From an uncultured Sphingomonas sp. (GTDB lineage Bacteria > Pseudomonadota > Alphaproteobacteria > Sphingomonadales > Sphingomonadaceae), in NCBI GenBank assembly GCA_913777325.1, contig CAJYSA010000096.1:1-40702 (forward strand): a stretch of DNA of 40,702 nucleotides, given 5' to 3'. Below the pieces are notes generated by a model. That model was not told the origin of the DNA, did not search any database, and was given only the letters and a program-made list of their open reading frames with translations. The position numbers were made by a program, and so were the translations under genes. Position 1 is the first letter of the stretch; each line of letters opens with the position of its first letter. Below are positions 1,131 through 20,441 of the stretch, piece by piece.

Positions 1131-1157
1131 GGGCCGCTATGGGGGATTCTACGCAAG
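1131..1157. promoter_or_regulatory. Putative response-regulator binding site, copy A
   Basis: Plus-strand core CTATGGGGGATTCTACG (1137-1153). CTATG and CTACG are direct repeats 12 nt apart, about one helical turn. The same layout occurs at 4557-4583 and 20415-20441, with a degenerate reverse copy at 17807-17833. It lies upstream of the phasin start. That it binds FixJ or the split regulator is inference. Confidence 0.45.
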
Positions 1158-1415
1158 GGGCGGTTGCGTGCCACCGAGCGCGATCGCCTTCGCAACCAGG
1201 CTCGCGACGGAAGTTGCACCGAGCTTGCGCATGATCCGTGCCCGATGGATCTCGACAGTTCGATGACTGATTCCGAGCTCGATGCCGATCGCCTTGTTGC
1301 TGAGCCCCCTCAATATGCCTGTCAGCACTTCGCGCTCGCGTGGCGAGAGACGATCGAGGGAGGGCGGCTCAGTGCGTCGCGTCCGACGAGGCAGCGGATT
1401 TGCCGCGCCAGCCAT
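1149..1415 (-). CDS. LuxR/FixJ-type helix-turn-helix DNA-binding protein without receiver
   Basis: This 88-residue protein is almost entirely a GerE/LuxR-type HTH domain: LSPREREVLTGILRGLSNKAIG, then ELGISHRTVEIHRARIMRKLG, as in the effector half of FixJ. About 25 basic, Pro-rich residues precede it, like an interdomain linker. The ATG at 1415 overlaps the TGA of the receiver gene upstream (TGATG), so it is probably translated by termination-reinitiation. Together the two genes equal one FixJ-like response regulator split between linker and receiver. Either the split is functional, with two proteins that can interact, or an indel has broken a single gene. All key HTH positions look intact. 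It may act on the motif copies found in this island. Confidence 0.8.
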   Translation of the reverse strand: MAGAANPLPRRTRRTEPPSLDRLSPREREVLTGILRGLSNKAIGIELGISHRTVEIHRARIMRKLGATSVASLVAKAIALGGTQPPLA

Positions 1416-1822
1416 CAGTCGCTGCCGACGGACCGTGGGGCAAGGCTTGTCACCGTGTTGACCAGCATATGCTCCTTGAACGGCTTCTCAAGGAAAGCGC
1501 TGAATCCAGCCTCTGAGGCTAAACGCCGCAATTCTTCGGTTGGATAAGCAGTTATGAGGATAGCCGGCCCTCGCCATCCAAGATTGCGCAAGGTAGCGAG
1601 TACGCTGAATCCATCTCTGTCACCCAGAAGATAGTCAATGACCAGGCACACCGCTTCGGTCAATTGTTCATCCAGAAGCATCGGATCGGCGGCCGCATAG
1701 GCCCGGACATCGAAGCCGCGCCCCTGAAGCAGAAGTTGCATCGACCGGCGCATCCCAGCATCATCTTCGACGATGAGTATTCGCGGTCGCTTGCTGCTTT
1801 GTACCCCCGGGGTCATGGTCAC
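1415..1822 (-). CDS. Stand-alone receiver-domain response regulator (N-terminal half of a split FixJ-like regulator)
   Basis: A 135-residue CheY-like receiver with all expected residues: the acidic pair in ILIVEDD, phospho-acceptor D63 in LVIDYLL, the Thr of ILITAY, and the Lys of FLEKPFKE. It ends soon after the domain, and its TGA shares a base with the ATG of the HTH gene downstream. Annotated from the GTG at 1822, which has AAAGGA about 9 nt upstream. The ATG at 1816 is an alternative start. It follows fixJ (1899-2513) in the same direction with a 76-nt gap that contains CTACGTA (1879-1885). The cognate kinase could be FixL or the soluble kinase at 16973-17749. The sequence does not decide between them. 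Confidence 0.85.
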   Translation of the reverse strand: MTMTPGVQSSKRPRILIVEDDAGMRRSMQLLLQGRGFDVRAYAAADPMLLDEQLTEAVCLVIDYLLGDRDGFSVLATLRNLGWRGPAILITAYPTEELRRLASEAGFSAFLEKPFKEHMLVNTVTSLAPRSVGSD

Positions 1823-1898
1823 CTAGGACATCCTTTCGCTTGTCGCAAAATGGATGCCCGGTGATGCCTCTCGGGTCGCTACGTATTGATCCTAAGCG

Positions 1899-2513
1899 TC
1901 AGGCGCCCATGCCGGCGGCGAAGGCGATGCGCAGGGCATCGGACAGGCTTCGGACTTCCAGCTTCGCCATGACGTTGGCGCGGTGAACCTCGACGGTTCG
2001 CGGCGAAATACCAAGATCAAACGCGATCGTCTTGTTGGGAAGGCCCTGTGCGAGACCTTCGAGAACGTCACGTTCCCGGGGCGTGAGAATGCCCAGGATG
2101 ACATCGGCTTCTTCGGCCCGCGCCAGGACATCGTCCGCCCTGGCGATCCGATCGAAGGCAGACTCAACTGCTCCCAGTAGCGCCGCCTTCTCAAAGGGCT
2201 TTTCGAGAAAGTCGACGGCGCCCGCTTTCATCGCGCGAACGGCGATCCCGATATCACCATGGCCGGTCATGATGACGATCGGCATGGCGACGCCGCGTTC
2301 GGCGAGAATCTGCTGGACCTCGAGACCATCGATCTCCGGCATGCGGATGTCGAGGAGAATGCAGCCATGCTCTGCGTGCTTCACCTCTTTGAGGAAGGCC
2401 GTCCCGGTATTCCAGGTGGTAACGGCGTAGCCGCTCGTCTTGAGCGCGAAGCTGGTCGATCGTCGCATCGATTCATCATCTTCAACAATATGCACGAGTT
2501 TACTGCTCACCAT
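1899..2513 (-). CDS. fixJ: FixJ-family two-component response regulator
   Basis: A 204-residue protein with a receiver domain (residues ~5-120: IVEDDES, phospho-acceptor D55 in LLDIRMPEIDG, IVIMTGHGDIGIAV, DFLEKPFEK) and a C-terminal LuxR/GerE HTH (LTPRERDVLEGLAQGLPNKTIA, then DLGISPRTVEVHRANVMAKL). The MTGHGDI-A and EKPF signatures are typical of FixJ. The start is the ATG at 2513 because it opens directly into the receiver and overlaps the end of fixL by 14 nt. The open frame continues upstream, but only antisense to fixL. With FixL it forms a kinase/regulator pair. In rhizobia FixJ activates fixK and nifA under low oxygen. No fixK/FNR gene is visible in this window, so here it may act directly on the island's promoters (inference). 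Confidence 0.9.
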   Translation of the reverse strand: MVSSKLVHIVEDDESMRRSTSFALKTSGYAVTTWNTGTAFLKEVKHAEHGCILLDIRMPEIDGLEVQQILAERGVAMPIVIMTGHGDIGIAVRAMKAGAVDFLEKPFEKAALLGAVESAFDRIARADDVLARAEEADVILGILTPRERDVLEGLAQGLPNKTIAFDLGISPRTVEVHRANVMAKLEVRSLSDALRIAFAAGMGA

Positions 2514-4485
2514 GTCCGTCCTCCGTTTCTGCGAGCGGCAGCGTGAAATGGAAGCGGGTTCCCCCGGCCTCCCCGGGTTCCATCCATATGCGGCCCTCAT
2601 TGGCTTCGATGATCGTCCGGCAGATCGAAAGACCAAGACCCATGCCGTCCTGCTTGGTGCTGACAAATGCCGTAAAAAGCTGGTTTGCGATCTCGGGCGC
2701 GACGCCCGGCCCGGTATCGGCAACCGTGACCCTTGCAAAGCCGGGCCGGTCGAGCTGGCTTGTTACAGTCACTTGCCGCTCCTCCTGATCTCTCATCGCT
2801 TCGCAAGCATTGCGAATGAGATTGATCAGGACCTGCTGGATCTGGACCCTATCGACGAAAACCGGCGAGGCATAGGGGTCAAGATCGAAGCGCGCCTCTA
2901 TCCCGCGCTCCCGCGCCCCGATCAGTCCGAGGACAGATGCGTCGTTGATTAGCGCCGGCAATCGTACGACGGTTCGCGCCACCTCGCCACGCGCCACGAA
3001 CTCACGCAGGCGGCGCACGATGTCGCCGGCCCTCAACGCATCCTTGGCGGCATCGTCGAGCGCCTCGACGAGCATGGGGAGTTCTTCAGGATCAAGATTG
3101 GCGAGACGGTCGCGCACTGCTTCCACATAGTTGGCGATGGCGCCGATCGGCTGATTGAGCTCATGGGCGAGCGTCGATGCCATCGAGCCCATCGCGCTCA
3201 CCCGCGAAACATGGATCAGTTCCGACTGCAAATCCTCGAGCCGCGCTTCGGCTTGGCGTCGCTCGGTGAGGTCGCGGATGAAGCCGGTGAAGATGCGCTG
3301 ATCGCCGGTATTTGCTTCGCCGATCGACACTTCCATGGGGAAGGTCGATCCGTCCTTGCGTTCGGCGAAGACCACGCGGCCCTTGCCGATGATCCGCCGC
3401 TCGCCGGTTTCGAGATAGCGCGTGATATAACCGTCATGCCGCTCACGATCGGGTGACGGCATGAGCAGGCTGACATTGCGGCCGACGACTTCGTCTTCGC
3501 GATAGCCAAACAGCGCCTCAGCTGCGGCGCTGAAGGAGAGGATCACGCCATGTTCGTCAATCACGACCATGGCATCCGGCACGGTCGAGAGGATGGAGCT
3601 TAAATGGGTCTCTCGCGCGCGGATCGTATTTTCGGACGCCCGCTTGTCGGTGATGTCGGAAACGACCTTCGCGAACCCGCGCAGTTCGCCGGCCTCATCG
3701 ATCAGTGCGGTAATCGAGATAGCGGCGAGAAACTCACGGCCGTCCTTGCGGAGACGCCAGTCCTCCTCCTCGAAGCGTCCCTCGGCCCGGGCCCTAGCGA
3801 GATCCGCCTCCGGCTTTCCGGTTGCACGGGCATCGGGCGGATAGAACAGCGACGTATGTTTCCCGAGGATTTCGGTTTCGCTCCACCCCTTGAGGCGTTC
3901 GGCGCCCGTGTTCCAGATCGTCACATGGCCGGTCGTGTCGAGCATGTAGATCGCATGCCCCTGCGCCCCATCGATCAGGAGGTTAAGCTCCTCGATCACC
4001 TCTTGCGCTTCACGGGAGTGAGCATCTGCTTTCGCATCGCTCGCCGCCGCCCTGCATCGCGCGCGATTGATCAATTGTCCAAGCAGGATAATCCCTGCTG
4101 CCACGAACAGGAACGTCGCGGCTTCGACGATGTGAGCGGCATTGAAGCTCTCATAACCGGAGAAATACCAACCGAAGCCCAATGACATGAGCGTCGCCAA
4201 CGCGGCTGGAACCGATCCGCAAAGCGGAACCGAGCCCAGGATCACGAGCGCGAAGGGAAGATAGGCCCTGCGCTCGCCAAGCACAGGTTCAAGCGCGGCG
4301 CGAACAGCAGCGGCTACGAGCACACCAGCGATCGCGACGCCGAACCTGAACAACCGTGAACGTTCCCACCCCGGCATTGCTAATACGGTCTCCGCTCGCG
4401 CGATCAGACGATCCGCAGCGGATAGGGAATCATCCTCGCGCCTGAAGTTGTGTTCACTATAGTTGTTTTTGTCCCGCAACGACAT
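2500..4485 (-). CDS. fixL: FixL-like oxygen-sensing histidine kinase with haem PAS domain
   Basis: 661 residues. The N-terminal membrane module (residues ~45-140) has several hydrophobic helices resembling the DUF4118/KdpD type. A first PAS domain (~165-285) is followed by a second (~293-410) with the FixL haem-pocket signature, including LLMPSPDRERHDGYITRYL and IIGKGR. H350 matches the haem-ligating His and R370 the oxygen-sensing Arg, 20 residues apart as in Bradyrhizobium FixL (H200/R220). The HisKA motif is HELNQPIGAIANY (H441). The HATPase region has LIRNACEAM, DTGPGV and GMGLGLSICRTI. The ATG at 4485 has GGAG 9 nt upstream. It overlaps fixJ downstream. Ferrous haem should bind oxygen and inhibit the kinase, so signalling would occur under hypoxia (family knowledge). 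Its divergent promoter region holds a 24-bp palindrome and a motif copy. Confidence 0.92.
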   Translation of the reverse strand: MSLRDKNNYSEHNFRREDDSLSAADRLIARAETVLAMPGWERSRLFRFGVAIAGVLVAAAVRAALEPVLGERRAYLPFALVILGSVPLCGSVPAALATLMSLGFGWYFSGYESFNAAHIVEAATFLFVAAGIILLGQLINRARCRAAASDAKADAHSREAQEVIEELNLLIDGAQGHAIYMLDTTGHVTIWNTGAERLKGWSETEILGKHTSLFYPPDARATGKPEADLARARAEGRFEEEDWRLRKDGREFLAAISITALIDEAGELRGFAKVVSDITDKRASENTIRARETHLSSILSTVPDAMVVIDEHGVILSFSAAAEALFGYREDEVVGRNVSLLMPSPDRERHDGYITRYLETGERRIIGKGRVVFAERKDGSTFPMEVSIGEANTGDQRIFTGFIRDLTERRQAEARLEDLQSELIHVSRVSAMGSMASTLAHELNQPIGAIANYVEAVRDRLANLDPEELPMLVEALDDAAKDALRAGDIVRRLREFVARGEVARTVVRLPALINDASVLGLIGARERGIEARFDLDPYASPVFVDRVQIQQVLINLIRNACEAMRDQEERQVTVTSQLDRPGFARVTVADTGPGVAPEIANQLFTAFVSTKQDGMGLGLSICRTIIEANEGRIWMEPGEAGGTRFHFTLPLAETEDGHGEQ

Positions 4486-4500
4486 CGCTTCGATCTCCGC

Positions 4501-4556: not shown

Positions 4557-4583
4557 GAGCCGACATCGGGGATTCTACGAATG
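4557..4583. promoter_or_regulatory. Putative response-regulator binding site, copy B
   Basis: Plus-strand core ACATCGGGGATTCTACGAATG (tail 4563-4583), sharing GGGGATTCTACG with copy A. It sits midway between the divergent fixL (ATG 4485) and the Pat-like gene (ATG 4659), about 75 nt from each, so it could serve either promoter. Confidence 0.45.
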
Positions 4584-4658: not shown

Positions 4659-7340
4659 ATGTCGATCCGCAATCTTTCCCCCCTTTCCGAGGCAAAAAGC
4701 ATCGCCATCATCGGGGGCTCGGCCCGGCCGCATAGCCTGGGCGCGATCGTGCTCGACAACATCGTCCAAGGCGGATTTAGCGGCACCATATATGCGGTCA
4801 ATCCGCATCGCTTCGACTATCCGGGCGTCGGCTGGAGCGCCAATATCGCCGAGCTTCCCGAAGCGCCGGATTTGGCTGTGGTGGTAACGCCGGCCGAAAC
4901 GGTGCCCGGCATTATCGGAGAGCTTGGCGAGAAAGGGGCGCGCTGCGCCATCGTGGTCTCCGCGGGTCTCAACCAGGCCAATGGCCTCAAACAGGCGATG
5001 CTCGATGCTGCGCGGCCTTATTGTCTGCGCATCGTTGGACCGAACTGCCTTGGCTTCATCGCGCCGCGGCTCAACCTCAACGCCACCTTCGCGCGGACCA
5101 GGGCATCCGCCGGTGGGCTGGCGCTGCTGTCGCAAAGTGGTGCGCTCGTGACGGCGGTGCTCGACTGGGCTGAGGCACGCTCGATCGGCTTCTCGGCGAT
5201 TGCGTCGGTCGGCGACATGGCCGATGTCGATCTCGGTGATCTCATCGACCTCTATGCGACCGACCCAGCGACTAAGGCGATCCTGCTCTACGTCGAGGGG
5301 GTTACCAACACGGCGAAGTTCATGTCGGCCGCCGCCGCCGCGGCGCGGCTCAAGCCGGTCATCGCGATCAAGGCAGGCAAATCGGCTGTCGCGGCCAAAG
5401 CGACGATGTCGCATACCGGCGCGCTCGCCGGCAGCTACGACGTCTACCGGGCGGCGTTCACGCGCGCCGGCATCGTTCTGGTCGAGACGCTCACGGAACT
5501 GTTCGACGCCGCAGAGATCCTGTGTCTCGCGCATGAGCCCCGTGGGCCGCGGCTCGGCATCGTCACCAATGGCGGCGGTGCCGGCATCCTCGCGGTCGAC
5601 TCGCTGCAGGAGGCGGGCGCGAGCCTCGCGCCGCTTCGTGCCGAGACGCTCGCCTCGCTCGACGCCGTGCTTCCCCCCACCTGGTCTCGCGCAAATCCGG
5701 TCGACCTGATCGGTGACGCCCCTCCCGGCCGTTATCGCGAGGCGGTCTCAGCGCTCTTGCGCGACGATACGGTCGATGGCCTCATCGTCATGAATTGCCC
5801 CACGGGCCAGAACGAAGCCTCGGCGATCGCGGAGGCCGTTTGCGAAGTGGTGGGCATTGCGCGCGCGGCGCGCATCGACAAGCCGGTTCTTGGCTGCTGG
5901 CTCGGTGACAGCAATGCAGCGGCGGTCGAGTCGATGATGCTCGAAGCCGGTGTTCCGGTCTATACGACGCCCGACGATGCCGTCCGCGCGTTCGGCTATC
6001 TGCTTGCGAGCCGAGAGGCGCGCCTGGCTCTCACCGATTGTCCCGTCGAAACACGCGACCGGTCGTATGACAGAGCCGATGCGCGAAAAATCATTGCGGC
6101 CGCGCGCGCCGACTATCGCGAGACGTTGAGCCAGATGGAGGCCCAATCGCTGCTCGCTGCCTATGGGATCGAGGTGGTGCCAAGCCGGTTTGCTGCTGCC
6201 GTGGAAATGGTCGATGAGGTCTGTGGATGGCTGAAGCCTCCGTTCGCGGTGAAGGTCTCCTCACCGGATATTCAGCACAAGTCTGAAGCCGGCGGCGTGG
6301 TGCTCGGTCTCCATGACCGCAAGGCCGCGGCGGCCGCCGCCTGCGCCATGGAAATGCATATACGAGATGCGTTTCCCAAGGCGCGGATCGACGGCTATAT
6401 CGTCGAGGAGATGGTGACGCGGCATGATGCCCGCGAGATGATTGTCGGCATCGCGACCGATCCGACTTTCGGGCCGATCCTGCTGGCCGGAACCGGAGGA
6501 ACGGCGGTCGAGATCATCGCCGACAAGGCGATCGCCCTGCCCCCGCTCGATCATGCCAAGTCTCTGTCGCTGATCGGCGAGACGCGCATGAGCAGGTTGC
6601 TCGATGCCTATCGCAATGTTCCCGCCGCCAAGCGCGACGCGGTAGCCGACGTGCTTGACGCGCTCTCGGCGATGGCGGTCGATTTGCCCGATATCGTCGA
6701 GCTCGACATCAATCCCCTGCTGGTCGACCCCGAAGGGGCGCTCGCACTCGACGCGAGAGTCCGGATCACGGCGCAGGCGCCTGCGGGCTCGAACCTGGTC
6801 ATCCGTCCGGCACCAATGGAGTGGGCCTCGACGCTGGTCACACAAAGCGGGCTCAGCTTCTATGTCCGGCCGGTCCGCGGCGATGACGAACCGCTGTTGG
6901 CGGCTTTTTTCGACAAGGTCTCGCCCGAGGATCTGCGCTTCCGTTTCCTGAGCGGTGTCGCGCATGTCGAGCATGCCCGCCTGTCGATGATGACCCGGGT
7001 CGACTATCGCCGCACCATCACCTTCCTGGCCTTCGACGCGGCCCGCGAGAGCGTGATCGCCACGGCCATGCTCGCGGCCAACGCCGACCGCACCCGTGCC
7101 GAGGTGGCGCTCGCCACCCGCGCGGACACGAAGGGGCGCGGTGTGAGCTGGACATTGTTCGAATATGTGCTGCGCTACGCCAAGGCCGAGGGGATCGGCA
7201 GCGTCGAGGCGATCGAATGCGCCGGTCATGAAGCCGCGCTTCGCATGGAGCGAGAGATGGGCTTTGCGACTGTTACGGATCCCGACGATCCGACGATGCG
7301 GATCGTGCGCCGCACACTCGTTCCAACCGATGCCGCATGA
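4659..7340 (+). CDS. ADP-forming acyl-CoA synthetase / GNAT protein acetyltransferase fusion (Pat/YfiQ-like)
   Basis: 893 residues in the order of Salmonella Pat/E. coli YfiQ. First is an NDP-forming acyl-CoA synthetase alpha part: a CoA-binding Rossmann fold at ~1-130 with IAIIGGSARP, then flavodoxin-like ligase domains with the phospho-His motif TMSHTGALAG (H252). Next is an ATP-grasp beta part at ~490-710 (AVKVSSPDIQHKSEAGGVVLG, LLAGTGGTAVEI, DINPLLV). A C-terminal GNAT domain follows at ~725-890 (FYVRPVRGDDEPLL, ATRADTKGRGVSWTLFEYVL). Pat enzymes acetylate and inactivate acyl-CoA synthetases and other lysines. Because H252 is retained, an acetate-CoA ligase activity should also be considered. 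The ATG at 4659 has GAGG ~8 nt upstream. It diverges from fixL, and its TGA overlaps the ATG of the next gene. Low-oxygen control is likely from position (inference). Confidence 0.88.
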   Translation: MSIRNLSPLSEAKSIAIIGGSARPHSLGAIVLDNIVQGGFSGTIYAVNPHRFDYPGVGWSANIAELPEAPDLAVVVTPAETVPGIIGELGEKGARCAIVVSAGLNQANGLKQAMLDAARPYCLRIVGPNCLGFIAPRLNLNATFARTRASAGGLALLSQSGALVTAVLDWAEARSIGFSAIASVGDMADVDLGDLIDLYATDPATKAILLYVEGVTNTAKFMSAAAAAARLKPVIAIKAGKSAVAAKATMSHTGALAGSYDVYRAAFTRAGIVLVETLTELFDAAEILCLAHEPRGPRLGIVTNGGGAGILAVDSLQEAGASLAPLRAETLASLDAVLPPTWSRANPVDLIGDAPPGRYREAVSALLRDDTVDGLIVMNCPTGQNEASAIAEAVCEVVGIARAARIDKPVLGCWLGDSNAAAVESMMLEAGVPVYTTPDDAVRAFGYLLASREARLALTDCPVETRDRSYDRADARKIIAAARADYRETLSQMEAQSLLAAYGIEVVPSRFAAAVEMVDEVCGWLKPPFAVKVSSPDIQHKSEAGGVVLGLHDRKAAAAAACAMEMHIRDAFPKARIDGYIVEEMVTRHDAREMIVGIATDPTFGPILLAGTGGTAVEIIADKAIALPPLDHAKSLSLIGETRMSRLLDAYRNVPAAKRDAVADVLDALSAMAVDLPDIVELDINPLLVDPEGALALDARVRITAQAPAGSNLVIRPAPMEWASTLVTQSGLSFYVRPVRGDDEPLLAAFFDKVSPEDLRFRFLSGVAHVEHARLSMMTRVDYRRTITFLAFDAARESVIATAMLAANADRTRAEVALATRADTKGRGVSWTLFEYVLRYAKAEGIGSVEAIECAGHEAALRMEREMGFATVTDPDDPTMRIVRRTLVPTDAA

Positions 7341-7933: not shown

Positions 7934-8897
7934 TCGCACCGCGCATCAATATCATTCCCGGGATCAGCGGTAGCCACAGGATGAGAAGCCGCAGGAGCAT
8001 CGTCCCGGCAAAAGCCGCCTCGAAGGAAATGCCGAGAAGGCGCAGCGTTGCTGTCGAAGTCGCCTCGAAGCTTCCGAGCCCAAGCGGGATTGGCCCCAGG
8101 GTCACGACAATCGAGGCCATGATCAGCGCGATGAAGGACGTTCCGAACGATGCGTCGGTCCCCAGTGCCCTCAGGCAGGCGAACAGGGTGCCAGCATCGG
8201 CCAGAAAGATGAGCGCGTTACAGGCCGCGACACGGGTGAGGAGCGAGCGGTCACGCAGCAACGCGCTCGGCGCTTCCGCGACATTGTCGAGAAGGGCGCG
8301 TACGACACCGATCTTCTCCAGCCAGTCGGGCAGCGGCTCACTGCCTCGATTGCGCAACCACAGAGCTAGGCTGGGGATGGCCAGCGCGACACAGAGAAAA
8401 AGCGTCACGAGCCCCGCCATCAGCGGTGTCGCGCGATCGTGGAACCAGAGCAGCACGAGCATGATGATGGCGAACAACGCATAGGCGGCATAGAATCCGA
8501 TCATCGAGATGATGAGCGCGGCGACGGCAGTGCCCCGCTCGACGCCGATGCCGCGCAGTTGGTCGACCAGCAGGACGTTGCCGCCCATACCGGCGCTTGG
8601 AAGGGCTTGGTCGGCGAACAGCTTCGTCACCGCGATACGGATGAGCGCCGCGAATTTGCGCGGTGTCCCGGCCCGCCGCAGGACCGCAGCCCAGCCGGCT
8701 GCTACACTGGCATAGGTCGAGAGCTGGAGCGCGATCGCGAGGCCCAGCCATTCGGGGCGCGCCCGCTCGACCAGCGCGGCGAAGCCCTTGACCTCACCCC
8801 AGTGAAGGACAGCGCCGATCAGCGCCGCAGCGAGGACGATGCCGAAGAACCAGTTGCGCCAGCCGCCGCCGGCGTGCCGCTCAGTTCGCGAGGACAT
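7815..8897 (-). CDS. Lysylphosphatidylglycerol synthase-type/YbhN (UPF0104) integral membrane protein
   Basis: About 360 residues with multiple hydrophobic helices and family hallmarks: FADQALPSAGMGGNVLLVDQL, where the SAGMGGN-like loop is typical of YbhN/AglD-type proteins, and later SIVVTLGPIPLGLGSFEATSTATL. It has only the membrane domain, without the cytosolic aminoacyl-transferase part of MprF, so a lipid flippase-like or transport role is possible but unproven. The start is taken at the ATG at 8897, which overlaps the phaC stop by 17 nt. The ATG at 8933 is an alternative. The basic, Pro/Arg-rich C-terminus (~35 residues) lies entirely over the antisense end of the quinone reductase gene and may be a recent extension. 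It is co-transcribed downstream of phaC. Confidence 0.75.
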   Translation of the reverse strand: MSSRTERHAGGGWRNWFFGIVLAAALIGAVLHWGEVKGFAALVERARPEWLGLAIALQLSTYASVAAGWAAVLRRAGTPRKFAALIRIAVTKLFADQALPSAGMGGNVLLVDQLRGIGVERGTAVAALIISMIGFYAAYALFAIIMLVLLWFHDRATPLMAGLVTLFLCVALAIPSLALWLRNRGSEPLPDWLEKIGVVRALLDNVAEAPSALLRDRSLLTRVAACNALIFLADAGTLFACLRALGTDASFGTSFIALIMASIVVTLGPIPLGLGSFEATSTATLRLLGISFEAAFAGTMLLRLLILWLPLIPGMILMRGAIRRPRRPMHGAHPASAPARKGDPRPTRSERGARGGSRRS

Positions 8898-10794: not shown

Positions 10795-11511
10795 ATGCGT
10801 CATCATGGCGGGATGTCTTTGCCCGATAGCGACTATGCGCGCCGTCCGGGTGGAATGAACAGCTTTCTGGGGTCGGTCTTTCTGCAGATGGCGGCAAGCG
10901 TAGCCTTGTCTGCGGCGGCCGCCGTTCTCGTCCTCAAGGTCGAGGCGCTGCAGGCCGCGCTCTTTGGTCCTGCGGGGCTCACGGTGCTGGGCTGGGTTGT
11001 GACGCTCGCGCCGCTGGGACTTGTGATTGTCATCGGTGCCGGGGTCGAGGGGCTGTCGGGCGCGGCCGCGCGTGGGTTGCTCGCTCTCTATGCCGTCCTC
11101 GTCGGCCTGTCGGTCGGCGTGATGTTCATCGGCCTGGCCGGCGCCAGCATCGTTGCCACCTTTCTCATCGCGGCCAGCGCCTTCATGGTGCTCGGCTTTA
11201 TCGGATTCACCACAGAGCGCGATCTGTCGGGGCTTGGCAGCTTCCTGACGATCGTGCTGGTCGGCCTCGTCGTCGCGATGCTCGTCAATCTCTTCCTTCG
11301 CTCGGCCGGGCTCGACCTCGTCGTCGCGGCCATCGGCATACTGCTCTTCGCCGGCCTTACCGCATATGACACACAGCGTCTCAAGCGCCTCTACGAGGAG
11401 CAGTCACCCATGTCCGGTAGCGCCAGCGCCAGCCTGGGGGCGCTCACCCTCTATCTCGACTTTCTCAACCTCTTCCTGTCGCTGCTGCGCTTTACGGGAA
11501 GGCGCCGGTGA
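10795..11511 (+). CDS. Bax inhibitor-1/YccA family membrane protein
   Basis: 238 residues, seven predicted transmembrane segments, an N-terminal cytosolic stretch and the BI-1 family C-terminal signature (ILLFAGLTAYDTQRLKRLYE, then LGALTLYLDFLNLFLSLLRF). The TAYDTQ Asp and the C-terminal Asp are the paired residues linked to proton/calcium sensing in bacterial BI-1 proteins such as YetJ. The ATG at 10795 has GAGGAG 8 nt upstream. The stop overlaps the start of the P-type ATPase gene (GTGA), so the two form an operon, suggesting a joint role in ion homeostasis or envelope stress. Confidence 0.88.
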   Translation: MRHHGGMSLPDSDYARRPGGMNSFLGSVFLQMAASVALSAAAAVLVLKVEALQAALFGPAGLTVLGWVVTLAPLGLVIVIGAGVEGLSGAAARGLLALYAVLVGLSVGVMFIGLAGASIVATFLIAASAFMVLGFIGFTTERDLSGLGSFLTIVLVGLVVAMLVNLFLRSAGLDLVVAAIGILLFAGLTAYDTQRLKRLYEEQSPMSGSASASLGALTLYLDFLNLFLSLLRFTGRRR

Positions 11512-14072
11512 ACATGATCTCCAGCGATTTCTGGCGTCAGCCGGCCGATGAAGTGCTCGGCGGCCTCGACGCCACGATTGACGGCATGTCGAGCGGCGAA
11601 GCGGCTCGGCGGCGCGAATTGTTCGGGCCAAATCGGATCATCGAGGCGAAGAAGCGTCATCTGCTTCTCGATATCGGCCGCCGGCTGGCGAACCCGCTGG
11701 TCGCCATCCTGCTCTTCGCATCGGCGATCGCCGGCATGACCGGCGATCTTGTGAGCTTCGTGATCATCGTTTCGGTGGTGTTGTTGTCGACGGGAATGGA
11801 CATCGTTCAGGAACGTCGCGCCGAAGCGACGGCCGAAGCTCTGAAGCACTCCATTGCCTTGCGCGTGCTGGCTCTGCGGGACGGCAAGCAGCAGGAAATC
11901 CCGGTCGAAGAGCTGGTTCCAGGCGATATCGTCACCGTCATGGCCGGCGACCTCGTTCCGGCCGATGGCATGGTGCTGGAGGCGAATGCTGCGCAGGTGA
12001 ACCAGGCCGCGCTGACCGGCGAGCCTTATCCGGTCGAAAAGCGGGCAGAGGTTGAACCTGGCGAGGTGATCGGCGACGCCCGCAATGTTCTTCTCCACGG
12101 CAGTTCGGTGATCGGCGGCACGGCGACGATGCTGGTCGTAGCGACTGGCTCGCACACCCAGTTCGGGCAGATCGCCAAGTCGCTCGTCAATGACCAGCCC
12201 CCGACGGCTTTCGAACGCGGTATCCATCATCTTGGCATCCTCATCGTGCGTTTGACGATGTTCCTCGTCCTGTTCGTACTCGTCACGCATCTCGCGCTCG
12301 GCCGGCCTCCGCTCGAATCCTTTCTCTTCGCGATGGCGCTCGCGGTGGGCTTGACCCCCGAGCTGCTGCCGATGATCGTGACAGTGTCGCTCGCGCGCGG
12401 CGCGCAGCGCATGGCCCGGGAAAAAGTGATCGTGAAACGGCTCTCGGCGATCCACGATTTCGGCCAGATGGACGTCCTATGCACCGACAAAACCGGGACG
12501 CTCACCGAAGCGCACATCACCATGGTTGCCCACCCGGGCATCGACGGAGAGGACAGTGAACGGGTCGCCGAGCTCGCCGCGGTCAACGCAACCTTCGAAA
12601 CGGGGCTCAAAAGTCCGCTCGACGATGCGTTGATCGCCCATGCGGCCGGCCATCCGCTCGATGGCTGGGTCAAGCTCGACGAGCGGCCGTTCGATTTCGA
12701 GCGGCGCCGCGTGTCGGTGCTCGCCGAGGCTGCGGGCGACAGGATCGAGATTATCAAGGGAGCTCCCGAAACCGTGCTTGCCCTGTGCGATCAGGCGGAA
12801 GACAGGTCGGGCAAGATCATACCGCTCGATGACGTGCTGCGAGCTCGCATCCAGTCGCTTCACGATAGCCATGCGGCCGAGGGTCTGCGCATGCTCGGGG
12901 TCGCCTGGAAGAAGGCGGCAGGCCGGACGAGGATCGACACGGACGATGATGAGGGCCTCATCTTCTCAGGACTGTGCGTCTTCATCGACCCGCCCAAGGC
13001 AAGCGCCACCGACGCTGTAGCCGCACTGGCAACGGCAGGTGTCAGGATCAAGGTCATCTCGGGTGACGCGGAGATCGTCGTCCGGCATCTGGTCGACAAG
13101 CTCAAATTGCCCGTCGAAGGCCTGCTCACCGGTAGCGAGATCGCGCAGCTCGATGATACGGCGCTTGCCGCCCGCGTCGGCGCGGTCGATCTCTATGCCC
13201 GGGTGACGCCCGACCAGAAATTGCGGATCGTGCGTGCGTTGCAGGCGCGCGGCGCCACCGTAGGGTTCATGGGAGACGGAATCAACGATGCCCCTGCGAT
13301 ACGGGCTGCGGATGTCGGGCTCTCCGTCGATGGCGCTACCGATGTCGCGCGTGAAGCCGCCGACATGATCTTGCTCGACCCGGACCTGAGCGTCCTCGCT
13401 GCCGGCGTTGAGGAAGGGCGGCGTACCTATGCGAACATCATGAAGTATATCCGCATGGGGACCAGTTCGAACTTCGGCAACATGCTGACCATGGCAATCG
13501 CCTCGGTATTTCTGCCGTTTCTCCCACTGACCGCGGTCCAGGTGCTCCTCAACAACATGCTCTACGATCTCTCGCAGATCGGCATCCCGTTCGATCGAGC
13601 GGATGCGAGCGATCTGGCGCGTCCGCGCGGTTGGGATATGGGCGCGCTGGTTCGATTCACCTTCATCATGGGCCCCCTTTCCTCCGTCTTCGACATCGCG
13701 ACCTTTGTCGCCCTTCAGAAAATCTTCCATGCCGATGTGGCGACATTTCGGGCGGCCTGGTTCATCGAGTCAATGGCGACGCAGATCCTTGTCGTCTTCA
13801 TCATTCGGACGGCGGCGCGCTTCTGGCAGGACCGTCCGCATCCCGTGCTCACCGCGACGGCGCTCCTCTGCCTCGCGATAGCGCTCATCCTGCCCTATTG
13901 GCCGATTGCGGCGCTGCTTGGCTTCGCCGGGCCCAATATGGCTGTGCTGGGCATGATCGCACTGCTGGTTTTCTTCTACCTTGCTGGCGCTGAGGCGCTC
14001 AAACGGGTCGCCATCCCAGAGCGGGCTCGCGAAATGAACCGCCCCGGGTTTGTCGGAGGCTCCAACTCCTGA
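11508..14072 (+). CDS. mgtA: MgtA-type magnesium-translocating P-type ATPase, 3' end replaced by IS3 sequence
   Basis: 854 residues of a P3B ATPase. In order they are an N-terminal cation-ATPase region, TM pairs, an actuator domain with [12 protein letters not shown], phosphorylation motif CTDKTGTLT (D327), [20 protein letters not shown] in the P domain, and six C-terminal TM helices with [19 protein letters not shown], an MgtA/MgtB hallmark. It imports Mg2+ at ATP cost. The GTG at 11508 overlaps the Bax inhibitor stop. The ATG at 11514 is an alternative. The last ~12 codons (from 14035) are the left inverted repeat and leader of the IS3 element, so the native C-terminus was cut just after the final helix. 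Function may survive because the domains are complete. Confidence 0.9.
14035..14060 (+). repeat. IS3 left terminal inverted repeat
   Basis: Begins TGAACCGCCCCGGGTTTG at 14035. It pairs with the right end with a single mismatch (T/C at the 19th base). It also encodes the foreign tail of the P-type ATPase. Confidence 0.9.
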
Positions 14073-15414: not shown

Positions 15415-16223
15415 TCAGTGTCCAAGAATGAGCGGCAGCTTGGCGTTGCTGAGCATTCGCTTGGTTACGCCGCCGAACGTTTCCATGAGGCGCCCATGGC
15501 TATAGGCGCCCATCAGCACGTAGTCGGCATGGAATGTGGTCGCTTCGGCCTCAATCAACTGATCGGCGGCATGGAGACCATCCTCGAGGATACGCACGGT
15601 GGCATGCACACCGTGACGCGACAGATATTCAGCTGCAAACGTCGGTTCGACGTTCTCGGCGCCGTCCCGCGCCATGAAGATCTCGACCGCCTCGGCGCGC
15701 TGCAGGAGCGGCACGCAGGCACGCAGGCACGCAGTGTCGCTGCCGCCGACGCCTGGCCGTCCCAGGCGATCAGCGCCCGCTTGAGGTCGAGCCGTTTGCA
15801 GTCGTCGGGCATCGCGACGATGGGCGCACGGGCATGCATCAGGATGCGGCTCGCCACATCGCGCATGTCGGGATAGGGAAACTGGTCGAGCTTGCGATTG
15901 AGGACGATGATGTCCGAGAGCATTGCGACGTCGCAAACACCATCGACGAAATTGCCGGTGACATCCGTCCAGTCCCAGGAGACATCCTCATGCGCGAGGC
16001 GCGCTTCGAGGGCGGTCTTGTTCTTGCCTTCGCGTTCGCGCTCGTCGGTGAGCAGCATCGCTTCGGCAATGCCTGGCGAGTAGATATCGCCTACCATTGC
16101 AGGAAATAGTGCGACGTCGATGCAGCTCAGATGGCCGTCGAGCGCCCGCGTCAAATCCAGGGCCGCCTGCAGGCGGGCTTCCTGACCTTCATCGTCATGT
16201 ACCAAGAGAAGAACATTCTTCAT
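15415..16223 (-). pseudogene. Universal stress protein (two-domain UspA type), frameshifted by an 8-bp repeat expansion
   Basis: The first frame (from the ATG at 16223, SD GGAGG ~5 nt away) encodes MKNVLLLVHDDEGQEARLQAALDL through APIVAMPDDCKRLDLKRALIAWDGQASAAATLRACVP and then loses sense. The -1 frame continues from LRACVPLLQRAEAVEIF to GAYSHGRLMETFGGVTKRML, the C-terminal Usp ATP/phosphate-binding signature. The switch is at three copies of GCACGCAG (15711-15734). Removing one copy gives a 266-codon intact gene (809 minus 8 is divisible by three). As it stands, a C-terminally truncated protein would be made. It could be a true mutation, a phase-variable switch or an assembly error. It is transcribed opposite to mgtA and downstream of the BON gene terminator. 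Confidence 0.85.
15711..15734. repeat. Three perfect tandem copies of an 8-bp unit inside usp
   Basis: GCACGCAG x3. Since 8 is not a multiple of 3, copy number decides the reading frame. Two copies restore the full-length Usp, and three copies break it. Confidence 0.95.
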
Positions 16224-16299
16224 CATCGCCTCCATCGTAACTTCTCGAAACGCTATGGAGGGTCGTCCTGGTCGATATGCGGGATGGTACTTAGACGAA

Positions 16300-16347: not shown

Positions 16348-17004
16348 TCAGAAGGCGACGACGATATTGTCCTCGACCTTGTTGACGCCGGGGGCGGCCC
16401 AGGCGGCACGCTCGGCGATACCCCGCTCGTTCCAGTTCTTGACCTTGCCGCCGAGGCGCACGGTGCTGCCGTCGGTCACAACAATAACCGTTCCCGCGTC
16501 GAGATCCGCCTGGCGTTTGAACGCCGCCATGATGCGATCCTTGACGTCGCTGGCGACGGGCAGCTTCTTCACCTCGATGAGATTGCTGACACCGGTAACG
16601 CCGGTGACGCGGCCCGCCGCGACGCGGGCCTCGTTGCTCTGGTAGTGCCAGTCGACGATGCCGCTGAGTGTCACCCAGCCATGCTCGACCTTGACCTTGA
16701 TCTTGTCATCGGGGATCGAGACGTTCCAGGCGAACATGTCGATGATGCGCTTGGCGATCTCATGGTCAGCGGTCTTGGGGTCCGAAGCGAAGCGCACCTT
16801 GATCTCCTCGGCGATCGCGCGAACGCCCGCCACCCGGCGCGTCGCCTTCTCGGCCGCGACCTTCTGGGGATAGCTCTTCACATAACCCGACAGGGTGACG
16901 ACACCGTCATTCACGGCGACGCCGATGTCGGCATGATCGATGCTCGGCTCCCACTCGAGCTCGGCCATCACGTCATGCTGCAGCTGACTGTCTGACTTTT
17001 TCAT
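16348..17004 (-). CDS. Protein with three BON domains
   Basis: 218 residues made of three consecutive BON domains (~6-72, 75-142, 148-216). Each has the pattern of a helix, then VxVxxGxVTLxGxV (VAVNDGVVTLSGYVKSY, VKVEHGWVTLSGIVDW, VVTDGSTVRLGGKVKNW), then a helix ending in A..APGV..V.N. BON domains bind phospholipid or other membrane components and are common in OsmY-like envelope stress proteins. Unlike OsmY there is no signal peptide, so it is probably cytoplasmic or membrane-peripheral. The ATG at 17004 has AAGGAG 7 nt upstream and lies inside the end of the upstream kinase gene (32-nt overlap), so the two are coupled. A hairpin terminator follows. Confidence 0.9.
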   Translation of the reverse strand: MKKSDSQLQHDVMAELEWEPSIDHADIGVAVNDGVVTLSGYVKSYPQKVAAEKATRRVAGVRAIAEEIKVRFASDPKTADHEIAKRIIDMFAWNVSIPDDKIKVKVEHGWVTLSGIVDWHYQSNEARVAAGRVTGVTGVSNLIEVKKLPVASDVKDRIMAAFKRQADLDAGTVIVVTDGSTVRLGGKVKNWNERGIAERAAWAAPGVNKVEDNIVVAF

Positions 17005-17749
17005 GGATAGTCTCCTTGCGTTTCGGCTTTGGAAAAGCGCTCCGGGATGGAGTGCAACGATCCGCCAGGGTGACCGAAAGTACCGTTGGCAGGATGAGCG
17101 CGATGGCAGTGCCGCCATCGACCTGACTGCGGATGCGCAGATGTCCGTGACTCGCCCGGACGAAATCGTGAACACGGGACAGGCCGGCGCCATGCGCGCA
17201 GCCGGTATCTACGCCGCGCCGCGCGCGGGCGAGTGCTTGCGACGCCATCCCGCGCCCATCATCGCATATCAGGATCCAGAGCCGCGCGCCGACACGCGCG
17301 CTGCGCACCACGATGGTGCGGGCGTCGGCCGCACCGGCATTGGCGATGAGCTCGAGGATGCTCGCGTCGAAGGCTGCGGGATCGAGCCGCGCCCGCGACT
17401 CGGGCATGCCTATCTCCAGATCGAACTCGACTCTCGGCCCCGCGAGCGCGCTCATCATCGGCGGGAGGTCCGCAAGTCTCGCGCCCACATCGACGGTCTG
17501 AAGATTCTCAGAGCGAACACCGTTGCCAAGAAGGTCGCTGGTCAAGCGGCCACCTTGCATCGCGGCGTCCTCGATGGCTTCGAGCAGCGTGATCCGCTGG
17601 GTCTGGCCCGGGTCGCGCGCAAGGATGTTCTTGGCCGCCACGACGATGCCGAAGAGGTTGCGCAGGTCGTGAATCGTCTGCCGCTGCGGTAGCGACGGCA
17701 TGAAGGTGCACGGCGCAGTTTGGAGTTGGGTTTGTGTCTGGTGGTGCAT
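16973..17749 (-). CDS. Soluble orphan histidine kinase-like ATPase
   Basis: 258 residues, no transmembrane or sensory domain. The N-terminal dimerisation/phosphoacceptor region has QTIHDLRNLFGIVVAAKNIL (H27), a HisKA-like HDLRN motif. The GHKL ATPase follows: N-box-like LELIANAGAADA, G1 ICDDGRGM, G2 GAGLSRVHDFVRASHGHLRI, and the closing GGTAIALILP. About 35 extra residues follow and overlap the BON gene start. The ATG at 17749 has GGGAGG ~9 nt upstream. It could be an auxiliary phosphodonor for the stand-alone receiver at 1415-1822 (speculation). A degenerate copy of the island motif lies ~60-80 nt upstream. Confidence 0.75.
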   Translation of the reverse strand: MHHQTQTQLQTAPCTFMPSLPQRQTIHDLRNLFGIVVAAKNILARDPGQTQRITLLEAIEDAAMQGGRLTSDLLGNGVRSENLQTVDVGARLADLPPMMSALAGPRVEFDLEIGMPESRARLDPAAFDASILELIANAGAADARTIVVRSARVGARLWILICDDGRGMASQALARARRGVDTGCAHGAGLSRVHDFVRASHGHLRIRSQVDGGTAIALILPTVLSVTLADRCTPSRSAFPKPKRKETIHEKVRQSAAA

Positions 17750-17806
17750 CGTCGGGCCCTCCCGTATTTGGTCCGGGTCCCTTTGTGGGACAGCGTTTAC
17801 GCTCCC

Positions 17807-17833
17807 CCCATTCGCAATCCCCCGTAGGGGCTA
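17807..17833. promoter_or_regulatory. Putative response-regulator binding site, copy D (degenerate)
   Basis: Minus-strand CCTACGGGGGATT, then GCGAATG, aligned to GGGGATTCTACGAATG of copy B with the second half-site shortened by 2 nt. It lies upstream of the soluble kinase gene and touches the phaB stop codon. It is weaker than copies A-C. Confidence 0.35.
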
Positions 17834-18565
17834 GGCCATATATTGCCCGCCGTTCACATCGAACGTGGCGCCGGTGATGAAGCCGGCATCCTCGGCCACG
17901 AGGAAAAGGACGCAGCGCGCGATCTCGGCCGGCGTGGCAAGGCGACCGACAGGGATGCGTTCGACGATCTTCGCGAGGATATCCGCCGGTACGGCGCGCA
18001 CCATATCGGTGTCGGTATAGCCCGGCGCAATGGCATTCACCGTGACGCCGGCACGCGCGCCTTCAAGCGCGAGCGAGCGCGTAAAACCGAGGATGCCAGC
18101 CTTGGATGCCGCATAGTTGGCTTGGCCGAACTGGCCGGCCTCTCCGTTGATCGACGAGATGCTGACAATGCGGCCCCATTTGCGGGTACGCATCCCACCG
18201 AATACGGCCTGGGCCATGTTGAAGCATCCGGTGAGATTCGTATCGAGCACGGCAGCCCAGTCCTGCGGACTCATCTTGGCGAGGCTCGAGTCGCGCGTGA
18301 TGCCGGCATTGTTGACGAGGATGTCGATCGGGCCGAGCGCAGCCTCGATTGAGGCGACTCCGTCGATGCACGCCTGATGATCGGTGACCGACCATGCCCA
18401 GCTGCGCACGCCTGTGCGCTCGGAAAATGCGGCCGCCCGCTCGGCATTCCCGCAAAAATTGGCGGCGACGGTATAGCCTTGAGCGCGAAGCGCCTCACAG
18501 GTCGCTGTGCCGATCCCGGTCGTGCCTCCGGGGACGAGAGCAACGCGGGCAGACGAAAATGGCAT
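17831..18565 (-). CDS. phaB: Acetoacetyl-CoA reductase (SDR family)
   Basis: 244 residues of a classical short-chain dehydrogenase. It has a glycine-rich NADP(H) loop (VPGGTTGIGTA, with VP in place of the common VT), then NNAGITRD, the SSINGEAGQFGQANYAASKAG active site (Ser and YxxxK) and VNAIAPGYTDTDMV. GQFGQ.NY and RD.....M are characteristic of PhaB-type reductases, which make (R)-3-hydroxybutyryl-CoA for PhaC. The ATG at 18565 has AGGAG 7 nt upstream. The longer open frame upstream lacks SDR homology. FabG is the main alternative, but the phasin and phaC neighbours favour PhaB. It follows the Cys-rich membrane protein gene with a 56-nt gap. Confidence 0.88.
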   Translation of the reverse strand: MPFSSARVALVPGGTTGIGTATCEALRAQGYTVAANFCGNAERAAAFSERTGVRSWAWSVTDHQACIDGVASIEAALGPIDILVNNAGITRDSSLAKMSPQDWAAVLDTNLTGCFNMAQAVFGGMRTRKWGRIVSISSINGEAGQFGQANYAASKAGILGFTRSLALEGARAGVTVNAIAPGYTDTDMVRAVPADILAKIVERIPVGRLATPAEIARCVLFLVAEDAGFITGATFDVNGGQYMA

Positions 18566-18621
18566 GGCAGGTCTCCTGATGATTGCTGCCACAGCCATGA
18601 TCCGGTCCGCCTTGTCGGTCC

Positions 18622-19248
18622 TTACGCAATGTCGCCGATCACCGGTGACTGGGCGGTGTCGCCGCCCTCCTCGCGCAAGGCGGCACGGAAGGTTTCCAGA
18701 CGGTCGCGATAGCCTTCGGCATCGCCATATTCGAGGAAGGCCGCATAGCGCTCGTGTGGCGCACTGATCCGGATCGCGTGCTTGATCGGGCACCAATATT
18801 GCTCGGTTCGGCTCGCGATTTCGCGGACATAGGCGACGACGCCGTTGCCATAGCCGCAATAGAGACAATTGAGCGCCTCGATCCCATTGAGATAGGCAAG
18901 GCTGCCACGATCGAAGGCGACATAGTCGCGACGCCGCACTCTCGGGATTCGATAGGCCCTAAAGCAGATCGCCTGATAGAGGCTCGCCCACAGGTCGAGC
19001 AACAGGAGCGGGATGAGCATCGAATAGATGATCGGCGCCGTCACGACGACGACAAGCGAGGAACGTGCGAGAAAACTCGCGATGCCTTGGCGCAATTTGC
19101 GATGCTCGCTGACGATACCATGTTCGAACTGGACGAGGCGGTCCTTGACCGACCAGCCCAGCGCTTTGCGCCGGCGCTCGATCTCGCGGTCAAGTTCACC
19201 CTGCAGACGCACGATCTCGTGCGCGAGCTCCTCGAGTCGTCCGGTCAT
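18622..19248 (-). CDS. Conserved hypothetical membrane protein with CxxC-type cysteines
   Basis: 208 residues. In order they are a charged coiled-coil-like N-terminus (LEELAHEIVRLQGELDREIERR), one long hydrophobic region (~70-95), a basic segment (YRIPRVRRRDYVAFDRG), then LNCLYCGYGNGVVAYVREIA and YWCPIKHA. The three cysteines (CxxC plus WCP) with nearby His suggest a metal- or redox-active site. I recognise the block as recurring in uncharacterised proteobacterial proteins but know no function. The ATG at 19248 has AGGA upstream. It lies between adh and phaB on the same strand, probably in one operon, so it may belong to the low-oxygen response. Confidence 0.75.
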   Translation of the reverse strand: MTGRLEELAHEIVRLQGELDREIERRRKALGWSVKDRLVQFEHGIVSEHRKLRQGIASFLARSSLVVVVTAPIIYSMLIPLLLLDLWASLYQAICFRAYRIPRVRRRDYVAFDRGSLAYLNGIEALNCLYCGYGNGVVAYVREIASRTEQYWCPIKHAIRISAPHERYAAFLEYGDAEGYRDRLETFRAALREEGGDTAQSPVIGDIA

Positions 19249-19324
19249 CGGGTAGGATCCTCAGCGCGCTCGCACTTCCGAGCCAAGCGCCGATGGCAGG
19301 CAGATGACCTGTCTTCGGAGGAGG

Positions 19325-20362
19325 TCATGTCGTGATCAACACCTTGAGCGCATCGGTCTCGGCCGCGCGACCAAAGGTATCGTAGGCGTCGAGGATGGTA
19401 TCGAGCGTGAAGCGATGGGTGATGAGTTGCATGGGCTCGAGCTTGCCCGACGTCACCGTCTTGAGGAGCATCGGCGTGGTCACCGTATCGACGAGCCGGG
19501 TCGTGATCGCGATATTGGCCGCCCACAACCGCTCGAGATGCAGGTCAGCCTTGACGCCGTGGACGCCGACATTGGCGATAGTGCCACCCGGCGCGACCAG
19601 ATCCTGGCACAGCTCAAAGGTCGCCGGTACGCCCACTGCTTCGATCACGGTGTCGCAGCCGCGGCCCTCGGTCAGCGCCTTCACGGCCGCGACGGGGTCC
19701 GCCGTCCCGCTGTTGACGACATGCGTTGCGCCAAAGCGCAGCGCGACATCCAGACGGATTTGGTCGAGATCGATGAGAATGATCTCGGCCGGCGAATAGA
19801 ATTGCGCCGTCAGCAGGGCTGCGAGGCCGATCGGTCCAGCACCCACGATCGCGACGCTGCTGCCTGGTGCGACCCGACCGTTGAGGACACCGCATTCGAA
19901 TCCCGTGGGCAGGATATCGCTCAGCATGACGAGCGCCTCTTCCGATGCCCCGGCCGGCACATGATACAAGCTGGTATCCGCGTGGGGAATGCGGACGCGC
20001 TCAGCCTGGGTGCCGTCGATGGCGTTGCCGAGAATCCAACCGCCCGTGGCGCAATGCGAGTACATACCGCGCCGGCAATAGTCGCAGCGTCCGCATGCGG
20101 TGATACAGGATATGAGGACATGGTCGCCCGGCTTGAAGCTAGTGACGGCCGCGCCGACGTGCTCGACGATACCGACACCTTCATGACCCAGGATGCGACC
20201 GGGCACGCAGGTCGGCACATCGCCCTTGAGAATGTGGAGGTCGGTCCCGCAGATCGTCGTATGGGTAACCCGCACAATGGCGTCCCCAGGCTCGAGGATC
20301 GTGGGATCGGCATGCTCGTCCAGGCTCTTCTGGCCGGGCCCGTGATATACCAATGCCTTCAT
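19325..20362 (-). CDS. Zinc-dependent alcohol dehydrogenase (MDR family)
   Basis: 345 residues of the medium-chain dehydrogenase family. Catalytic-zinc ligands are in TTICGTDLHILKGD and GHEGVGIVEHVG, the structural zinc loop is CGRCDYCRRGMYSHC, and the NAD(P) Rossmann motif is VGAGPIGLAAL. It would interconvert alcohols and aldehydes or ketones, plausibly as a fermentative electron sink. The substrate cannot be read from sequence. The ATG at 20362 has GGAG 9 nt upstream; the 11 extra upstream codons lack homology. Motif copy C lies ~55-80 nt upstream. The Cys-rich membrane protein gene follows 76 nt downstream. Confidence 0.9.
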   Translation of the reverse strand: MKALVYHGPGQKSLDEHADPTILEPGDAIVRVTHTTICGTDLHILKGDVPTCVPGRILGHEGVGIVEHVGAAVTSFKPGDHVLISCITACGRCDYCRRGMYSHCATGGWILGNAIDGTQAERVRIPHADTSLYHVPAGASEEALVMLSDILPTGFECGVLNGRVAPGSSVAIVGAGPIGLAALLTAQFYSPAEIILIDLDQIRLDVALRFGATHVVNSGTADPVAAVKALTEGRGCDTVIEAVGVPATFELCQDLVAPGGTIANVGVHGVKADLHLERLWAANIAITTRLVDTVTTPMLLKTVTSGKLEPMQLITHRFTLDTILDAYDTFGRAAETDALKVLITT

Positions 20363-20414
20363 CGTCCGTTCTCCGCTGATTGGCGTCCACCTCATTGATC
20401 GGTCGAACGAGCGA

Positions 20415-20441
20415 TCGGCCCTATTGGGAAATCTACGGACA
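20415..20441. promoter_or_regulatory. Putative response-regulator binding site, copy C
   Basis: Plus-strand CTATTGGGAAATCTACG (20421-20437), with the same CTAY-N7-8-CTACG direct-repeat spacing (12 nt) as copy A. It lies between the divergent adh (ATG 20362) and lipoprotein (ATG 20532) genes. Confidence 0.42.

Follow-up and report, generated by a model that had tools for sequence, protein, structure and literature searches.

A FixJ-type box on a sphingomonad island

A 40,702-nucleotide stretch from an uncultured Sphingomonas sp. (contig CAJYSA010000096.1; hereafter the window) carries an island with genes for a FixLJ two-component system, together with a sequence motif repeated before several of the cargo genes. 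This raises the question of whether the motif is the site of a regulator encoded on the island and, if so, of which one. We are confident that the motif is the FixJ box of the island FixLJ system and that it defines a FixJ regulon over the island cargo. Computation gave us the motif itself, along with its conservation, its association with FixL genes, its resemblance to published FixJ sites and a phased A in the promoters; we infer binding, activation rather than repression, the oxygen signal and the limits of the transcription units.

An initial annotation of this DNA had placed the motif at 1131–1157 and 4557–4583, and indeed the 12-mer GGGGATTCTACG (opposite strand CGTAGAATCCC) is found exactly at 1142–1153 and 4568–4579 and nowhere else in the 3,598,063-base genome. 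With at most one mismatch it occurs at four places in the genome, two of them other than the window copies, and the reversed pattern at two. The variant reported at 20415–20441 is also there, as GGGAAATCTACG at 20426–20437, with two mismatches to GGGGATTCTACG. The degenerate pattern CGTAGWWTYCC has nine places genome-wide, three of them in the island, against five for its reversed form.

To score sites we used a position weight matrix (PWM) built from 11 sites outside the window. It gave the three window sites 25.8, 20.2 and 13.1, compared with 7.9 for the next place and 6.2 for the reversed window. As the training sites of this matrix had been picked with a degenerate core, unbiased tests weigh more. 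In a ranking of gapped words by over-representation across 93 upstream regions (raw dyad counts were swamped by GC-rich words), GGGA-N2-CTAC came first, in 9 regions with 0.33 expected (about 10^-10 per word), and CGTA-N3-TCCC was also at the top, in 10 regions with 0.6 expected (about 10^-9). The best word reached 10^-6.7 in 58 coding segments and 10^-4.3 or less in five shuffles. Expectation–maximization on 51 masked upstream regions, with the window and the nearest named cluster (L054) excluded, converged on TnCGTAnnnTCCCGnA in all 8 refinements printed; without masking, the procedure locked onto conserved coding sequence, and that result was not used. Near-identical regions had been removed from the dyad, gapped-word and expectation–maximization sets. 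Motif discovery on orthologous upstream regions, which the initial annotation had proposed, therefore returned the same motif de novo.

The learned motif is a 16-bp pseudo-palindrome, and 9 of the 11 specified positions of TnCGTAnnnTCCCGnA equal the FixJ site of the Sinorhizobium meliloti fixK promoter, TAAGTAATTTCCCTTA, in register. This site, and the two classes GTAGTTTCCC and GTAMGTAG obtained by systematic evolution of ligands by exponential enrichment (SELEX), are cited in passages of PMC4999443. CGTAGAATCCC and GTAGTTTCCC are alike at 8 of 10 bases. Across 46 loci (830,066 bases), we counted 17 copies of GTAGWWTCCC and none of its reversed form. TACGTA, the core of the second SELEX class, is found 35 times in 24 cluster loci, 4 times in 21 loci of other alphaproteobacteria and not at all in 24 unrelated loci.

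The de novo PWM picks out window places starting at 1140, 1880, 4566, 10712, 10722, 16278 and 20424, plus 22521. A FixJ-type site before predicted target genes is thus present, by sequence match, in six window regions, of which 1880–1895, 10712–10737 and 16278–16293 are additional to those first reported. The boxes are as follows.

1140..1155, minus strand: box 1, upstream of the phasin-like gene and overlapping the stop codon of the gene for a free-standing helix-turn-helix (HTH) protein, the HTH-only gene; 20.2 on the non-window PWM, 17.8 on the de novo PWM
1880..1895, minus strand: box 2, of the TACGTA type, upstream of the receiver-only/HTH-only gene pair; 16.6 on the de novo PWM
4566..4581, unstranded: box 3, midway between the divergent fixL and pat genes; 25.8 on the non-window PWM, 18.4 on the de novo PWM
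10712..10737, unstranded: overlapping boxes 4a and 4b, in the gap separating phaC from the Bax1-I/ATPase genes; de novo PWM scores 14.9 and 16.8
16278..16293, minus strand: box 5, the weakest, TAAGTACCATCCCGCA, upstream of the usp-like gene; de novo PWM score 14.4
20424..20439, unstranded: box 6, between adh1 and a small lipoprotein-like gene; 13.1 on the non-window PWM, 20.4 on the de novo PWM

With gene starts chosen by inspection, box centres lie 64.5–88.5 nt from the likely starts, the former value being that of box 1 and the phasin-like gene, and 100.5 nt from that of the lipoprotein-like gene. The distance of about 80 nt given in the initial annotation is close to those at phasin (about 65), fixL (88), pat (85) and adh1 (70). 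Box 2 is at the same place in L054, and TACGTA also precedes receiver genes in L037, L041 and L056. Boxes 4a and 4b are both kept in L054, at 13893 and 13903. Box 5 equals the S. meliloti fixK site at 11 of 16 bases, and the usp-like genes of L036, L037 and L060 have boxes upstream at a like distance. No orthologous phasin promoter for comparison with box 1 was found among the compared loci. Nearer to fixL than box 3 is a weaker box-like place, 4505–4520 (10.6; the L054 counterpart at 9851–9866 scores 14.5), and an inverted repeat, CCTTACG/CGTAAGG, spans 4500–4522.

Two elements of the original proposal did not survive. A fourth site at 17807–17833 scores 3.8 on the non-window PWM, where the reversed window reaches 6.2, and does not rank among the top 12 window places by the de novo PWM; it falls within the adh1–BON unit, where a promoter is not needed, and we reject it as a FixJ site. 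The upstream CTAY and the CTAYK/CTACG direct repeats with 12-nt spacing are seen in the first and third sites, but the second reads CATC, and the motif derived from orthologues has no conserved CTAY half-site, so the direct-repeat architecture was discarded.

The box is phased with a conserved A

Alignment of 47 promoters on the box revealed an A at the 25th base past the box on the gene side in 35 (binomial P = 1.3e-15 for one of 160 tests, a value that overstates independence because some of the promoters are orthologues). Just one further column is strong, a T directly after the box, in 32 of 47. On the side facing away from the gene the A is present in 24 of 47, and many of the sites are divergent. 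The phased A is always found at adh1, adh2 and receiver genes, at one of three flavodoxin genes and not at the single phaC. Pooled over held-out loci, A occurs 39 times at the phased offset compared with 5–18 times at each remaining offset between 16 and 33, and 31 of the 34 held-out sites have the phased A on at least one side (0.33 for random positions).

The phased A fits a -10 element. If it were the -11 A, the box centre would lie near -43.5. Passages of PMC4999443 give S. meliloti FixJ footprints of -69 to -44 and -57 to -31, and the centre we derive falls inside the latter.

The box accompanies FixLJ across genomes

Boxes were counted at a de novo PWM score of at least 14 and compared with the reversed sequence. 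The count is 70 (2 reversed) in the training clusters, 7 (0) in window positions 1–22,500 and 5 (0) in L054. By comparison, window positions 22,501–40,702 have 1 (0), which is the place in adh2; 22 loci of other alphaproteobacteria have 0 (3); and 24 unrelated same-family loci have 1 (0).

We then compared the regions upstream of pat and adh1, using leave-one-group-out scoring against 4000 null segments. Upstream of pat, 12 of the 18 cluster loci have a site at P of 0.004 or better, and none of 21 other alphaproteobacterial loci does. The 18 are sphingomonads, with L053 labelled only as uncultured bacterium; duplicate loci L052 and L057 are excluded, and the pat row of L036 was dropped from this test and from the promoter set as a locus-edge artefact (distance above 5000). 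At adh1 the box exceeds all 4000 null segments in five of six compared loci and has P = 0.009 in the sixth, with adh1-like genes below 60% identity (L039) left out. The other alphaproteobacterial pat loci mostly have no FixL or only 26–28% matches to it; an exception is L073, which has a FixL fragment (54%) and FixJ (45%) yet no pat box. Because the box stands at pat in FixLJ-bearing loci and not in those mostly without FixL, our comparison indicates that it accompanies FixLJ, not Pat.

A survey of 199 genomes found 121 FixL loci in 89 genomes, and 127 exact matches to the consensus. Of the 65 matches in genomes with FixL, 14 lie within 20 kb of a FixL gene and 7 within 2 kb, compared with expectations of 1.05 and 0.13 that assume 3.45 Mb per genome; 3 of the 14 come from training genomes. 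Twelve held-out FixL loci (237,843 bases) contain 34 boxes, compared with 2 in reversed sequence. Six of these loci (L099–L104, 25 boxes) had been selected for exact matches; the other six (L105–L110), selected for FixL alone, have nine boxes, with none in one locus. The motif hence gathers in the clusters that carry FixLJ and is absent or nearly so from control loci, and the computational tests proposed with the initial annotation support a FixJ-type regulon across the island, in which binding by the regulator is presumed.

Evidence that weighs against the assignment

Several observations weigh against a FixJ regulon as we describe it. The 16-mer consensus does not occur exactly in this genome, and the window boxes fit it at 8 to 10 of 11 positions. 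Box 5, at 14.4, barely exceeds the reversed-window maximum of 13.0 on the de novo PWM, and the place at 22521–22536, at the end of adh2, scores equal to it. There is no convincing pat box in 6 of the 18 cluster loci, and at pat the phased A is limited to 6 of 14 promoters. The literal GTAMGTAG shows no enrichment (1 occurrence, 60 reversed). Across the 199 genomes the exact patterns are no commoner than reversed controls, which is expected of a small regulon. In PMC5234846 the S. meliloti fixK promoter was not induced by Burkholderia FixLJ, which means that FixJ sites cannot simply be exchanged between groups. Finally, a search of the window for the 12-mer at three mismatches shows no enrichment, with 19 places where 33.9 are expected, and the signal therefore resides in the strong matches and their conservation.

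This last deficit, and the background score of the fourth site, are what would be seen if the repeated sequence were the product of chance or recent duplication with no regulatory role. We consider this extremely improbable: a PWM from outside the window separates the three window sites, the flanking sequence of the two exact GGGGATTCTACG copies differs, and the motif is conserved before orthologous genes, clusters near FixL and comes with the phased A.

FixJ is the better candidate regulator

Four regulatory genes lie between the phasin-like gene and pat.

1149..1415, minus strand: free-standing HTH protein; Pfam GerE; nearest solved match the S. meliloti FixJ C-terminal domain (1x3u, E = 1.6e-13)
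1415..1822, minus strand: receiver-only protein; Pfam Response_reg; overlaps the start of the HTH-only gene
1899..2516, minus strand: fixJ, a receiver plus GerE response regulator; best solved match full-length FixJ (5xso, E = 8.6e-52)
2500..4485, minus strand: fixL, a haem-PAS sensor kinase; Pfam PAS, HisKA and HATPase_c

The best matches of the FixL PAS domain are FixL chains (8js5, 2.5e-55; Bradyrhizobium japonicum 1dp6, 3.8e-50), and the next protein family follows at 3.1e-14. It keeps the aligned RHD and GR segments, whose His and Arg presumably have roles in haem and oxygen binding. The fixJ gene overlaps fixL, and the recognition helix of island FixJ, ISPRTVEVHRANVMAK, is identical to that of S. 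meliloti FixJ (1x3u).

The initial annotation had offered either FixJ or a split regulator as the binding protein. The boxes might be bound mainly by the HTH protein, acting by itself or forming a split regulator with the receiver-only protein, leaving FixJ a secondary part. As a GerE protein it is nearest to the FixJ DNA-binding domain, and free-standing FixJ-like HTH genes recur in L054, L058, L061 and L035. However, it differs from S. meliloti FixJ within the ISPRTVEVHRANVMAK stretch, boxes are present in many FixLJ loci where an HTH-only gene was not seen, and the receiver/HTH pair seems itself to be a target, through box 2. We regard this arrangement as quite unlikely. As the recognition helix of the HTH-only protein is less like that of S. 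meliloti FixJ, the product of 1899–2516 is the better candidate for the box regulator. A relative of the HTH-only gene in L039 encodes an N-terminal stretch resembling a degenerate receiver.

A second FixLJ cluster and the absence of an island FixK

The same genome has a second FixLJ–Pat cluster (C19, L041; FixJ 66%, Pat 51–52%). It contains a Crp-family open reading frame (11827–12573, minus strand; HTH_Crp_2) with a box at 12573–12588, at its first possible start. On the island, fixK was not found as a FixJ target, and the window contig has no HTH_Crp_2 match. Both wirings, that of the island FixLJ and that of a resident FixLJ–FixK, may therefore operate in one cell.

FNR/FixK, EcfG and sigma-54 are usual regulators in alphaproteobacteria, and six HTH_Crp_2 matches exceed the cut-off in this genome, one of them in the second cluster. 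One of these hypoxia or stress regulators could then control the island genes and the motif be incidental. We found in the window no FNR-type box with at most one mismatch and no EcfG-type promoter, which is weak evidence as 1.78 and 0.87 are expected by chance; sigma-54-like sites are at chance level (14 against 16). The conserved motif, in contrast, is of the FixJ type. On these grounds we rejected control by FNR, EcfG or sigma-54, which is very unlikely, and retain FixJ as the regulator.

Island setting and cargo

The nearest named cluster is that of Sphingomonas sp. NFR15 (L054), whose pat is 88% identical. GC content is 60–65% up to 24 kb and 67–71% beyond. At this step lie a recombinase-like gene (22981–24915; DUF6538 above cut-off, Phage_integrase below it) and, beside it, tRNA-Glu (24993–25067). 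Together these mark the right island edge, as expected of an integrated island, and would imply mobility; a search of the rest of the window for a 15-nt repeat of the tRNA-Glu region gave none. The predicted targets are the following.

703..1083, minus strand: phasin-like gene; Pfam Phasin_2, E = 9.5e-4, under the curated cut-off
4659..7340, plus strand: pat, acyl-CoA-synthetase-like with an acetyltransferase; Pfam CoA_binding_2, Succ_CoA_lig, ATP-grasp_5 and Acetyltransf_1
8881..10653, minus strand: phaC; Pfam PhaC_N; start picked by inspection
10795..14072, plus strand: Bax1-I family gene and P-type ATPase, a predicted unit; Pfam Bax1-I and E1-E2_ATPase
15415..16221, minus strand: usp-like gene, in two frames; no Pfam match at 1e-3 in either piece
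16348..20362, minus strand: predicted box 6 unit of adh1, the 18622 gene (no Pfam match), a phaB-like reductase, a soluble kinase and a BON gene, annotated by Pfam
20532..22541, plus strand: predicted box 6 unit of the lipoprotein-like gene (no Pfam match), a DUF308 gene and adh2; Pfam DUF308 and ADH_N (adh2)

By Pfam the cargo includes, among the genes listed, a short-chain reductase and two alcohol dehydrogenases, and further a flavodoxin-fold gene, an LPG_TM membrane protein and transposase genes. The name usp-like we take from resemblance only. Judged from strands and gaps (76, 62, 81 and -29 nt in the adh1 unit), the cargo would form nine units, each with a box: fixL–fixJ; receiver/HTH; phasin; pat–flavodoxin; phaC with the LPG_TM gene; Bax1-I/ATPase; usp-like; adh1 to BON; and lipoprotein-like to adh2. 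The usp-like gene is split over two frames within 15415–16409, for which a real break and a sequencing error are alike possible. A two-gene transposase unit (14088–15316; HTH_Tnp_1, then HTH_21 with rve) lies between the ATPase and usp-like genes, and the island has therefore been invaded by an insertion sequence. In L039 (15728–18384; G011) Pat is encoded as two abutting pieces, one synthetase-like and one bearing the acetyltransferase.

Proposed mechanism

The island probably carries a low-oxygen survival kit together with its own switch. We propose that when oxygen falls, FixL without bound oxygen would phosphorylate FixJ, and that FixJ dimers would bind the boxes, 16-bp pseudo-palindromes in six regions serving nine promoters. 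Centred near -43, the dimers would recruit RNA polymerase to a -10 element at a fixed distance. The box at fixL would provide positive feedback, and the one before the receiver/HTH pair would make this pair a co-induced modulator. A broader proposal, whose merits we find about evenly balanced, is that of a self-contained and transferable regulon for low-oxygen persistence in which every cargo unit is boxed, the effectors are driven directly and not via FixK, the receiver/HTH pair is a natural split FixJ modulator, and related regulons exist across sphingomonads.

Comparison with known systems

FixLJ systems with FixJ-type sites are already known. Distinct here, as far as the predicted features go, are the location on a sphingomonad island, the direct effector targets, the lack of a Crp-family gene on the contig and the receiver/HTH pair. 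Like the rhizobial regulons of S. meliloti, B. japonicum and Rhodopseudomonas palustris, the island has a FixL-type haem PAS kinase with FixJ, its box resembles TAAGTAATTTCCCTTA and GTAGTTTCCC, and the box centre near -43 is within the S. meliloti footprint range. Unlike in those regulons, the island boxes precede effector genes and the window has no HTH_Crp_2 match. No nitrogen-fixation gene was seen among the island cargo.

The mycobacterial DosR dormancy regulon differs from the island in its sensors and box and is not known to lie on an integrase-flanked island. It is similar by description in that a NarL/FixJ-family regulator directly controls a set of hypoxia genes with many universal stress proteins (PMC3029386). 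The Burkholderia lxa locus, as described in passages of PMC6127331, is likewise a low-oxygen-induced cluster with universal stress proteins, but its control is proposed to run via the CRP-family BCAM0049/FixK; the passages of PMC6127331 and PMC4603805 give no lxa promoter motif. Caulobacter also pairs FixLJ with an extra single-domain receiver protein, FixT, which in PMC7078487 has a four-cysteine Fe–S motif. The island receiver-only protein lacks this motif, having one cysteine on sequence inspection, and is paired with an HTH-only gene.

Passages of PMC4999443 call fixK the sole known conserved FixJ target, state that the missing common consensus hampers the finding of others, and indicate that this comparative study built no FixJ profile for sphingomonads. 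A sphingomonad FixJ regulon is not described in the titles and abstracts of the top-ranked papers in our literature searches, which mostly do not cover subscription journals. From sphingomonad loci, and with no prior input, a consensus with fixed promoter phasing emerges that makes FixJ target prediction a matter of scanning, open to test, and that draws attention to an island equipped with an oxygen switch of its own. In Sphingopyxis granuli some anaerobically regulated genes are unchanged in an fnrN fixK double mutant, as reported in passages of PMC7713065, and the consensus may bear on these genes.

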